A program made the translations under genes and the position numbers. The notes below the pieces were generated by a model that was not told the DNA's origin, made no database searches, and saw only the letters and a list, made by a program, of their open reading frames with translations. This document shows, one piece after another, positions 12,550 through 56,025 of a stretch of DNA of 64,000 nucleotides. Source of the stretch: Lamprocystis purpurea DSM 4197. GTDB lineage: Bacteria; Pseudomonadota; Gammaproteobacteria; Chromatiales; Chromatiaceae. Location: NCBI RefSeq assembly GCF_000379525.1, contig NZ_KB902493.1, positions 204-64,203 of the forward strand, given 5' to 3'. The number at the start of each line of letters is the position of its first letter. The stretch's first letter is position 1.

Positions 12550-13833
12550 TCACAACATTCCCAAAGTCCGCGGCAGCCAGAGTGACAGACTCGGCCAATA
12601 GGTGATGAGCATCAGGAAGATCAGCATGGTGAACAGCCAGGGGAAGCAGGCGATGGTGGTCTCGGTCATGCCCATCCGCGAGATGCCGCTCGCCACATAA
12701 AGATTGAGGCCTACCGGCGGAGTGATCATGCCGATCTCCATGTTCACCACGACCATCACGCCGAAATGGATGGGGTCGATCCCCAATGCCATGGCCACCG
12801 GAAAGAGCACCGGCGCGGTGATCAGGATGATGGAGGTCGGCTCCATGATATTGCCGGCCAGAAGCAGCAGGACGTTGACCGCCAACAGGAAACCGATCGG
12901 CCCAAGCCCGGAGTCCACCAACCATTGGGCGAGTTCCTGGGGGATGTTCTCGTAGGTCAGGAGATAGGAAAACAGGACGGCATTGGTGATGATGTAAAGC
13001 AGCATCGCCGACATGTTGGCCGAGTCCAGCAGCACCCTGGGCACCCGCTTGAGCGGCATGTCCTTGTAGACGAAAACGGCAATCACGAAGGCATAGACGG
13101 CGCTCACTGCCGCGGCCTCGGTGGGTGTGAAGGCACCGCTATAGATGCCGCCCATCACCAGCACGATGAGCAGCAGCCCCCAGACCGATTTGCGGAAGGC
13201 GCGCCAACGGGTTCCCCAGTCGGCCCGCTTGAGACGCGGATAATTGTTACGGCGGGCAATCCACCAGGTGGTGACGCCGAGCATGAGCGCCAGCACGAAA
13301 CCGGGGACGATTCCGGCGATGAAGAGTGCCCCGACCGAACTGTTGGTGGAGACCGCGTACATCACCATGACGATCGATGGTGGGATCAGGATGCCCAGCC
13401 CCCCGGCGGAAGCAATGGTGCCGACGCCAAAGCGCATGGGAAAGCCCTGCTTCACCATGGCCGGAATCAATATGGACCCGATCGCTGCGACCGTGGCCGG
13501 CGAGGACCCGGAGACCGCGGCGAACAGCGCGCAGGCAAAGACCGCCGAGAGTCCGAGTCCGCCATGGTAGTGACCCACCATGCTGGAAGCGAAATTGATC
13601 ATGCGCCTGGCCACGCCCCCGTGAGTCAGGAAATTCCCGGCCAGAATGAAGAACGGGATCGCCATGATCTCGAATTTTTCGATGCCGGTGAAGAGTTTGA
13701 GCCCCACCGACTCGATCGGGACCGAGGTCATGGTAAAGAGATAGGTCAGCACGGTAAGACCCAGCGCGATAGACACCGGCATGCCGGTCAGCATCATGCC
13801 AAGCAGAAGACCGAAGATGATCAGTGCGGTCAT
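12550..13833 (-). CDS. dctM: TRAP transporter large permease (DctM)
   Basis: 427 residues with about twelve hydrophobic segments, the usual DctM length. Typical family motifs are MPVSIALGL, AIPFFILAGNFLTHGG, SGSSPATVAAIGS, ASAGGLGILIPPSI and MEIGMITPPVGLNLY. It forms the Na+-driven channel of a TRAP carrier in the inner membrane, working with the DctQ subunit and the periplasmic DctP receptor. Its ATG overlaps the dctQ stop by four bases (13830-13833). The substrate is probably a C4-dicarboxylate or related acid, by family only. Confidence 0.93.
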   Translation of the reverse strand: MTALIIFGLLLGMMLTGMPVSIALGLTVLTYLFTMTSVPIESVGLKLFTGIEKFEIMAIPFFILAGNFLTHGGVARRMINFASSMVGHYHGGLGLSAVFACALFAAVSGSSPATVAAIGSILIPAMVKQGFPMRFGVGTIASAGGLGILIPPSIVMVMYAVSTNSSVGALFIAGIVPGFVLALMLGVTTWWIARRNNYPRLKRADWGTRWRAFRKSVWGLLLIVLVMGGIYSGAFTPTEAAAVSAVYAFVIAVFVYKDMPLKRVPRVLLDSANMSAMLLYIITNAVLFSYLLTYENIPQELAQWLVDSGLGPIGFLLAVNVLLLLAGNIMEPTSIILITAPVLFPVAMALGIDPIHFGVMVVVNMEIGMITPPVGLNLYVASGISRMGMTETTIACFPWLFTMLIFLMLITYWPSLSLWLPRTLGML

Positions 13834-14558
13834 GACCGATCCTCCCCGCCCTTGCGCGGGCCGCCCTCATCCGGCTCATGCGTGCCGCCGGGTGGATGAT
13901 GCTCCAAGTGCCCGCCGTGCATGTGTTCACGCTCTTCGGCAAGGGTAATGGCCTCGCCGAGGTAGACCGGCTCCTGGCGGCCGGCTGCCTGAGCCTGTTC
14001 CACTTCCTCCTCCAGCCCCTCGACATAGGCGTGCTCATGGCGCGGCAGTTCACCGGTCCGGAAGAAGGACCAAGCCACCTCCAGGAAGCGGAAACACATG
14101 AGATAGGAACCCAAGGGAATCGCCAGATAAACGATCCACACCGGCAGTTCCAGGTCCGGGGAGGTGGCATCGGTATGGGACAGATGCCAGACGAAGTTGA
14201 CCCCGAAACTGCCCACCAAACCGGTAAACAAGGCCCCGGCCAGGAGCCCGAACAGGACGAATTTGGAACGCAGTCCTTCGTGCAGATTGTTGATGAGCAC
14301 ATCCACGCCAACGTGAATGCCGGTGCGCACCCCGTAGGCCGCCCCGAACTTGGCCATCCACACGAACATGTAGATGCACAGTTCCTGGGCCCAGCTCAGG
14401 TTGATGCGGAAGAGCCAGTCATAGACGGCATCCCAGCCCCATGCGTTCGACAAATCCATGCTGTAGCGGTGCAGCACCGCGGTAAAGATGAGCAGTGTCG
14501 CGGCGCCGATGAGCAAGGTGATCAGCCACTCTTCCAAGTGGTCCAGGATTCTGAGCAT
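13830..14558 (-). CDS. dctQ: TRAP transporter small permease (DctQ)
   Basis: 242 residues from the ATG at 14558; an in-frame ATG at 14624 adds 22 unsupported residues. Four hydrophobic helices fit DctQ, with the family pattern WAQELCIYMFVWMAKFGAAY and RTGIHVGVDVLI. The protein is longer than usual, with a charged His/Glu-rich C-terminal tail (from about residue 170, including HMHGGHLEHHPPGGTHEPDE) that could bind metal or be a disordered extension. It is coupled to dctM by a 4-base overlap. It is separated from dctP by the 81-bp repeat array, an unusual interruption of a TRAP operon. Confidence 0.9.
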   Translation of the reverse strand: MLRILDHLEEWLITLLIGAATLLIFTAVLHRYSMDLSNAWGWDAVYDWLFRINLSWAQELCIYMFVWMAKFGAAYGVRTGIHVGVDVLINNLHEGLRSKFVLFGLLAGALFTGLVGSFGVNFVWHLSHTDATSPDLELPVWIVYLAIPLGSYLMCFRFLEVAWSFFRTGELPRHEHAYVEGLEEEVEQAQAAGRQEPVYLGEAITLAEEREHMHGGHLEHHPPGGTHEPDEGGPRKGGEDRS

Positions 14559-14663
14559 GGTGTCCCCCGAGTGGTCGGCCACTGTGGTGGATCCGGCGCG
14601 CGCTGACCAACGGTCGATCAGCACCGGGATGCGCGCCGACCTTGGTCATCAACCCGGCCGCTT

Positions 14664-15066
14664 CGCCCTCTGAGCGAGGGTTGGTCCGCACAGCGGACCC
14701 TACGATCGCGATCTTACGTAGGGTCCGCTGCGCGGACCGAGCCTCGCCCTCTGAGCGAGGGTTGGTCCGCACAGCGGACCCTACGATCGCGATCTTACGT
14801 AGGGTCCGCTGCGCGGACCGAGCTTCGCCCTCTGAGCGAGGGTTGGTCCGCACAGCGGACCCTACGATCGCGATCTTACGTAGGGTCCGCTGCGCGGACC
14901 GAGCCTCGCCCACTGAGCGAGGGTTGGTCCGCACAGCGGACCCTACGATCGCGATCTTACGTAGGGTCCGCTGCGCGGACCGAGCTTCGCCCTCTGAGCG
15001 AGGGTTGGTCCGCACAGCGGACCCTACGATCGCGGTTTTACGTAGTCCGCTGCGCGGACCGAGCAC
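14664..15066. repeat. five tandem copies of an 81-bp hairpin repeat
   Basis: Near-identical units begin at about 14664, 14745, 14826, 14907 and 14988, with a period of exactly 81 bases. The last unit has a short deletion near 15043. Each unit contains a long inverted repeat: ggtccgcacagcggaccc ... gggtccgctgcgcggacc around a central tacgatcgcgatcttacgta. Because 81 is a multiple of three, both strands carry long open frames here, but these are repeat artefacts. The array lies between dctP and dctQ and could act as a transcriptional or RNA-stability barrier. Confidence 0.93.
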
Positions 15067-15146
15067 CTCCGGCCGGAATGCTGGTCAAGGCCCGCGCGCC
15101 TGACCCACCCTCACGCAAGACGCTTAGGCGATTGACGGAAATCGCC

Positions 15147-16151
15147 TTAGAGTTTGCTGATATCGCTGCCGGTCGCCTGATAGATCGACTGGATCAGGTC
15201 TTTGCCCACGCGGTCCGCCATCTGCTGGTGCACCGGGGCCAACCGCTTCTTCCACTCCGTTTTCTGCTCAGGCGTGAGTTCGATGATCGCGCTCTTGCCG
15301 CTGGCCTTCACCTTGGCGAGTGCGTCGATGTTCTCCTGTTTCGCAATCTCGTTGGCATAGACGGTCGCCTCCGCCATCGCCTCATCCAGCGCCTCACGTA
15401 TATCCGCGGGCAGACCATCCCAGAAGGCTTTATTGACGATGACCGCATAGCCGAGGTAGCCGTGATCCGAATTGGTGACGAACTGCTGGACCTCGAACAT
15501 TTTTTGCGTATAGAGGTTGGACGGCGGGTTCTCGGTTCCGTCCACCACGCCGGTCTGGAGTGCCTGATAGACCTCGGAGAAGGCCATCACCTGCGGATTG
15601 GCACCTAAGGCGCGCATCTGGGCATCCAGCACCTTGGAGGACTGGATACGCATCTTGAGTCCACGGAAGTCCTTGGGGTCCTTGAGCGGCTTGTTGGCGC
15701 TCATCACCTTGAAGCCGTTATCCCAGAAGGCCAGGCCCAACACCCCCTTGTCGGCCAGCTTGCCGAGCAGGTCCTTGCCGATCGGACCCTCGGTCACCTG
15801 ATGCAACTGATCGTAGCCGTCGAAGATATAGGGCAGGTCGAAGACCTCGAACTCTTTGAGACCCAAGGGGCCGAACTTGGCCAGTGATGGCGCCAACATC
15901 TGCACCGCACCCAGTTGCAGGGCCTCCATCTCCTCCTTGTCCTTGTACAGCGTGCTGTTGGGGTAAACGGTCACCTCCACCCGGCCCTTGGTCTTCTCCT
16001 TGGCGAGCTGGGCAAAACGTTCGGCACCTTTGCCTTTCGGGGTATCGGCAGCCACCACGTGGCTGAACTTGATGGCGATGGGCTCCTCGGCCTGAACGGC
16101 CAGGACACCGAGCAGCAACAGGATTCCAAACAGCAGCGAAGCGGATTTCAT
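15147..16151 (-). CDS. dctP: TRAP transporter substrate-binding protein (DctP)
   Basis: 334 residues with an N-terminal Sec signal peptide (MKSASLLFGILLLLGVLAVQA, cleavage near residue 21). Family signatures are IKFSHVVAADTPKGKGAERF, VEVTVYPNSTLYKDKEEMEA, LKMRIQSSKVLDAQMRALGA with the conserved substrate-carboxylate Arg, and VDGTENPPSNLY. The protein captures the substrate in the periplasm and delivers it to DctQM. The start is the ATG at 16151; an ATG three codons upstream (16160) is possible. It is the first TRAP gene in transcription order, with the repeat array between it and dctQ. Confidence 0.94.
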   Translation of the reverse strand: MKSASLLFGILLLLGVLAVQAEEPIAIKFSHVVAADTPKGKGAERFAQLAKEKTKGRVEVTVYPNSTLYKDKEEMEALQLGAVQMLAPSLAKFGPLGLKEFEVFDLPYIFDGYDQLHQVTEGPIGKDLLGKLADKGVLGLAFWDNGFKVMSANKPLKDPKDFRGLKMRIQSSKVLDAQMRALGANPQVMAFSEVYQALQTGVVDGTENPPSNLYTQKMFEVQQFVTNSDHGYLGYAVIVNKAFWDGLPADIREALDEAMAEATVYANEIAKQENIDALAKVKASGKSAIIELTPEQKTEWKKRLAPVHQQMADRVGKDLIQSIYQATGSDISKL

Positions 16152-16348
16152 GGCGGGCACTCTCCGTCGGTCGGTGGTCGGTCACGCGTCAGATCGCGCC
16201 GGGCTTGGCGGTCGACGGAGTTTGAACCAGACGCCCCCACTTGACCAGTATCCCGGAGACGGGTGCGTGGAAAATACCGAAATCCTGGCCCGCGCGGACA
16301 GCCGATTTCCTCACGCGCACCAGACCATGCCGAGCGCCAACCAACGAA

Positions 16349-55805: not shown

Positions 55806-55944
55806 AGCGCCAGGCTGAATGCTGACGGCCGAGCGCTGAGCGTGCTGTTCAGGTCGTCGGTCCGCACAGCGGACCCTACGGATCACCACCGTCCCGTCGG
55901 GTCCGCTGTCGACCACAACGCTGATCAAGACCCCGACGCCCGCG

Positions 55945-56025
55945 ATATAGCGTTCGCACCTGATATCCAGACAGACCTTCATGTAGGGGCGGGTTTGAAA
56001 CCCGCCCCTACGTCCGGCTATCAGG
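55945..56025. repeat. dispersed palindromic repeat, copy 2 (reverse)
   Basis: Core palindrome 55983-56011 (gtaggggcgggttt / aaacccgcccctac). The flanks atagcgttcgcacctgat and ccagacagacctt are the reverse complement of the flanks at 3799-3834. Confidence 0.75.

Follow-up and report, generated by a model that had tools for sequence, protein, structure and literature searches.

The dctP and dctQ genes of a TRAP transporter operon in Lamprocystis purpurea DSM 4197 are separated by a tandem array of hairpin repeats, which raises the question of what these repeats are, how they came to lie there and what they might do to the operon. All coordinates refer to the window, the whole stretch of 64,000 nucleotides that was analysed. 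The operon lies on the minus strand: dctP, for the solute-binding protein, occupies 15147-16160 (PF03480, E 2.6e-110; TIGR00787, E 1.4e-99), dctQ, for the small permease subunit, 13830-14558 (PF04290, E 1.9e-23), and dctM, for the large permease subunit, 12550-13833 (PF06808, E 9.4e-134). The dctQ start, an ATG at 14558 after CGGGGGACACC, was assigned by inspecting the sequence and comparing it with relatives. This start leaves 588 bp between dctP and dctQ, where 72 related operons have a median distance of 87.5 bp. Immediately past the dctP stop an inverted repeat, GGCGATT-N6-AATCGCC, was read directly in the sequence (15127-15146, minus strand). Both of its arms were present in the relative G004 and the 3' arm was absent in G006/L060; the minimum free energy fold of the gap did not choose this repeat as a structure.

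The initial annotation had placed five near-identical 81-bp hairpin units between the two genes, and their presence was borne out by tandem repeat finding, by a unit search and by folding. Tandem Repeats Finder (TRF) reported an array at 14663-15064 with a period of 81, 5.0 copies and 97% matches. Searching the assembly with a single unit gave five units that tile 14660-15062 on the minus strand. Counted from the dctP side, unit 2 (14903-14983; 98% to the query unit), unit 3 (14822-14902; 100%), unit 4 (14741-14821; 99%) and unit 5 (14660-14740; 100%, next to dctQ) are 81 bp long and differ from one another at 0-2 positions. The dctP-proximal unit 1 (14984-15062) is 79 bp long and degenerate, with a changed centre and two bases missing from one stem.

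Each unit is composed of two inverted, GTAG-footed REPs, which form a REPIN of approx. 59 bp, and 22 bp of local flank. In unit 5 the REPIN portion is 14682-14740 and the flank 14660-14681. The REP core reads GTAG + GGTCCGC-NNN-GCGGACC, a short palindrome with a GTAG foot, and within one unit the pair is exemplified by 14683-14738, with a minus-strand REP at 14683-14703, a plus-strand REP at 14718-14738 and the GTAG feet facing inward. The palindrome core was matched 19 times in the window, where 0.20 matches were expected. Along 14660-15062 the unit ends alternate between GAAGC and GAGGC, the like pairs being units 2-3 and 4-5. This alternation is a hint that a 162-bp double unit was copied in the most recent round of amplification.

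Two other identities were rejected. A CRISPR array was ruled out, as the entire 81-bp unit recurs at 97% and no unlike spacers are present. A coding repeat was rejected as well. Because the 81-bp period is divisible by 3, open reading frames run through the array on either strand; the one on the minus strand does not share the dctQ frame, and no marks of a gene were seen. The frame-neutral length, to which significance had earlier been attached, carries no weight, since the array lies downstream of the dctP stop (15147) and upstream of any possible dctQ start. An Rfam scan of the window at the gathering score returned 0 matches.

The REP is not private to this operon. Allowing up to 2 mismatches, the core was found 124 times in forward and 121 times in reverse orientation (245 in all) in the 6.9-Mb genome, against 1 + 2 = 3 matches for a reversed control pattern. 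With up to 1 mismatch all 8 genomes of the genus were positive, with 33 to 459 matches each, as were 5 of 47 relatives outside the genus, just one of which had more than 4 matches. The genome holds 38 exact inverted REP pairs, 4 within the array and 34 elsewhere. In a placement screen that covered 44 elements, including two that belonged to the array, rough gene calls assigned the 42 non-array elements to co-directional (13), convergent (7) and divergent (2) intergenic settings or to the inside of a called ORF (4), and left 16 unplaced. A further degenerate unit had been proposed at 55856-55918. What lies there (55857-55913, with a REP at 55859-55879) is indeed a decayed inverted pair, a solitary REPIN of the genome's common type, but it lacks the 22-bp array spacer. 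Close by, at 55983-56011, we observed a GTAG-footed palindrome of a different sequence class, GTAGGGGCGGGTTTGAAACCCGCCCCTAC; its pattern was present in 7 of 236 loci, some of them overlapping, and it probably represents a second REP-like family.

A candidate source of the family's mobility was found in a REP-associated tyrosine transposase (RAYT) gene on contig C69. The 193-aa product, one of several Y1_Tnp matches, matched NF047646 above the cut-off (E 5.8e-50) and fell slightly under the cut-off for Pfam Y1_Tnp. The HLH stretch and the Y-containing YIHYNP/YLHYNP stretch, both RAYT motifs, were conserved in four clade members. Array-type REPs adjoined the RAYT gene at 5/5 loci of this clade (66-100% identity) and at 0/25 other RAYT-like loci (at most 53% identity), 7 of them from genomes of the genus in which these REPs occur. 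At four of the five clade loci the REPs flank both sides of the gene; the fifth, L178, is incomplete in sequence and only one side is visible. One clade member, L180, contains an internal stop. A RAYT of the matching clade was not found in the assemblies of G005 and G006, despite their 300 and 129 REP matches, respectively. Judged by this adjacency, the REP family is tied to one RAYT clade. Just past the RAYT gene on C69 (L045, 1647-3200, genome G000) REP clusters recur with 114-bp spacing; the surrounding genes resemble, by a motif seen by eye, those for formylglycine-generating (sulfatase-modifying) enzymes. Another RAYT-like gene of this genome (L171, C142; 51% identity) has two internal stops and no array-type REPs nearby, and by these features it is probably a decayed RAYT of a different clade.

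The history of the array can be read from its spacer and from the same junction in relatives. Copies of the unit outside the array mostly covered query positions 1-61, a few extended to 66-76 and one, on the opposite strand, to 81. A 20-base spacer pattern, allowing up to 3 mismatches, matched the five array copies and one further site with 3 mismatches in the genome, where a control pattern gave 5 matches. As the outside copies mostly stop near position 61 and the spacer is confined to the array, the unit consists of a REPIN plus local flank. In G006, identical in sequence here to L060 from an uncultured Lamprocystis MAG, the dctP-dctQ gap holds one unit, equal to ours at 78/81 positions and with a right flank identical to that of the array. 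G004 has one REP plus a remnant at this junction. In G001 the two genes are 52 bp apart, with an 8-bp stem between them and no REP, and L062 shows this same gap. The copy-number variation for which the initial annotation had suggested a check therefore shows up among related genomes. Array-type REPs were not found at the dctP-dctQ junctions of G003, G005 and G007 (dctP 66-70% identity), and G002 gave no dctQ on the sequence piece examined. In L233, L234 and L235 (from G005, G007 and G003, respectively) the gap is filled by unrelated long inverted repeats, TAAACCGCGTC ... GACGCGGTTTA and similar, the second of which finishes next to or across the dctQ start. The second DctQ family match of our genome (C161, L230) was without a REP.

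Since the spacer occurs only in the array and a relative carries one unit at the same junction, we concluded that the array expanded locally from one REPIN; on this comparison it arose, most simply, from a single copy. Several independent insertions were ruled out, because the 22 bp of the unit are found nowhere else in the genome. The initial annotation had not recognised the unit as a REPIN spread through the genome, associated with a transposase family of its own, joined to a local flank and amplified from one copy. It is nearly certain that the array is a tandem of five copies of one REPIN, the presumed non-autonomous passenger of the RAYT clade of the genus, which entered before the split from G006 and was then amplified in place.

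At the RNA level the array is strongly structured. The RNA of the whole dctP-dctQ gap folded at -371 kcal/mol (z = -21.9), and 0/100 shuffled sequences were equally stable. As dctP-sense RNA each intact unit gave -59 to -63 kcal/mol in a hairpin of approx. 22 pairs, and the degenerate unit 1 gave -47 kcal/mol, so that long-stem hairpins do separate dctP from dctQM, as had been proposed. Between 14400 and 15300 neither a terminator-like site (a GC-rich stem followed by a T run; 0 found) nor a sigma-70-type promoter-like site was found. The array thus places strong hairpins lacking a terminator U-tract between a binding-protein gene and its permease genes. It was ruled out as an intrinsic terminator for want of a U-tract, which favours a decay barrier over intrinsic termination.

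We then asked how such junctions look in related operons, taking the 80 best among 584 dctP relatives. Of these, five that lacked a dctQ or had a non-collinear one were removed, as were three with a gap below 30 bp; the remaining 72 operons exclude the window itself and include L060, which is positive via its REPIN. The annotation's premise that dctP and dctQ are normally tightly coupled proved wrong for this sample, since the gap had an interquartile range of 66-119 bp around its median, and over half of the operons carry a strong hairpin. Perfect stems of at least 7 bp were present in 38/72 gaps, where shuffling predicts 4.8, compared with 4/72 in equal-length stretches upstream of dctP and 4/72 in stretches inside dctQ. 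The median folding z was -2.67 for the gaps, -0.32 upstream of dctP and -0.90 inside dctQ. Among dctQ-dctM gaps of at least 30 bp, 1/9 contained such a stem.

Grouping by string similarity with a permissive rule merged the 38 junction hairpins into just 13 clusters. As this rule is loose for GC-rich strings, dctP identity was used for thinning. With dctP below 90% identity junction stems numbered 31/57 against 3, and below 80% 9/18 against 1/18 (p 0.008); below 75% the excess was weaker, with 6/13 against 1/13 (p 0.06). The stem was followed by at least four T in 13/38 cases, so that part of the junction hairpins may be attenuators. No literature on TRAP junction hairpins was recognised by title or abstract in a search of mainly open-access papers.

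What, then, would the array do? We propose that a dctPQM transcript is made across it and that every unit folds into its hairpin. The dctQM part would be cut, and the hairpins would then stall 3'-to-5' exonucleases, so that dctP mRNA would outlast dctQM mRNA and the binding protein would be produced in excess. The pattern is that of the structure between malE and malF in E. coli, a REP; stabilisation by REP sequences was reportedly described by Newbury in 1987. In E. coli a structure before malF protects malE, and it is the binding-protein gene that is stabilised in malEFG as well as in four further ABC operons (PMC5927463). By this analogy the lowering of dctQM relative to dctP that the initial annotation had suggested would be in the expected direction. 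A decay barrier of the malE-malF type, raising dctP mRNA over dctQM, is the likeliest role, with about an even chance of being correct. For the explanation as a whole, identity and function together, we estimate a probability of roughly 55%; it is the best of those considered.

The placement may instead be chance, since REPINs sit at many other loci. The main rival, which we hold to be possible and clearly less probable, is that a selfish or neutral REPIN landed in a tolerant gap and was expanded via slippage or recombination, invisible to selection. It is consistent with the 34 exact pairs elsewhere in the genome, with a placement of the 42 non-array elements that, by rough gene calls, looks like ordinary extragenic spread, and with the varying copy number among relatives. 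Tandem REPIN clusters that include flanks are, moreover, the commonest higher-order form in the genome of Pseudomonas fluorescens SBW25 (PMC3116915). However, a tendency to strong hairpins at this junction is also seen in related operons that lack the REP, and a structure at that place therefore looks useful in its own right.

Instead of protecting dctP mRNA, the array could lower dctQM if transcription ended within the long untranslated gap through Rho or through pausing. Transcription attenuation by BIMEs, reportedly described by Espeli in 2001, counts for this reading, as does the length of the gap relative to the 72 related operons. Stem-loops after binding-protein genes in Clostridia act as weak internal terminators that set ABC importer ratios (PMC9045158). 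The lack of any stem with a T run around the array speaks against attenuation, and we consider it unlikely here. By analogy with BIME-2 of E. coli, at which gyrase reportedly cleaves, the array could act at the DNA level by binding gyrase or IHF or by relieving supercoiling. The hairpin trend at operon junctions points to RNA instead, and such a role seems very improbable. More speculatively, and with considerable doubt, the junction behind a leading dctP may be a general site for a stabilising or attenuating hairpin that is kept by position and not by sequence. In this genus the REPIN would then have taken over the site, and its copy number (0, part, 1 or 5) would be an evolvable dial for the subunit ratio.

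Both the kind of repeat that forms the array and the kind of place it occupies are already known. The REPINs of SBW25 are likewise inverted REP doublets that form a hairpin, some of them adjoining a RAYT gene (PMC3116915). They belong to another organism, and the likeness is one of description and not of letter-by-letter REP sequence; what differs is that the array here lies within a TRAP operon and can be set against a relative that has one copy at this junction. GTAG-tagged REP families share the GTAG foot, a 7-bp stem, a 3-base loop, dimers joined tail-to-tail with GTAG inside and tandem reiteration with flanking DNA, again compared by description and not by consensus (PMC3733652). In the main text of that paper the strings "chromati" and "allochromatium" did not occur. 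REP_Sm of Stenotrophomonas maltophilia likewise has a perfect short palindrome with a 3-nt interruption and GTAG directly before it, a likeness of description and not of letter-by-letter sequence (PMC8266576). The organisation as REPIN plus flank in tandem is thus already known for Pseudomonas and other REPs (PMC3116915, PMC3733652). Modestly new are the matched RAYT-REP pair in the genus, the range of copy numbers found at one junction among relatives, and the excess of dctP-dctQ hairpins. REPIN biology is hereby extended to a genus of purple sulfur bacteria (Chromatiaceae) with a matched transposase clade, and the natural copy-number series lends itself readily to testing whether the ratio of transporter subunits is tuned by tandem REPINs. 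At malE-malF, too, a strong hairpin separates a leading binding-protein gene from the permease genes of its importer; that system is an ABC transporter for which the effect was measured (PMC5927463), whereas for the array in this TRAP operon we infer it. Given the excess of hairpins between dctP and dctQ, TRAP importers may meet the need for excess binding protein in the way that ABC importers do.
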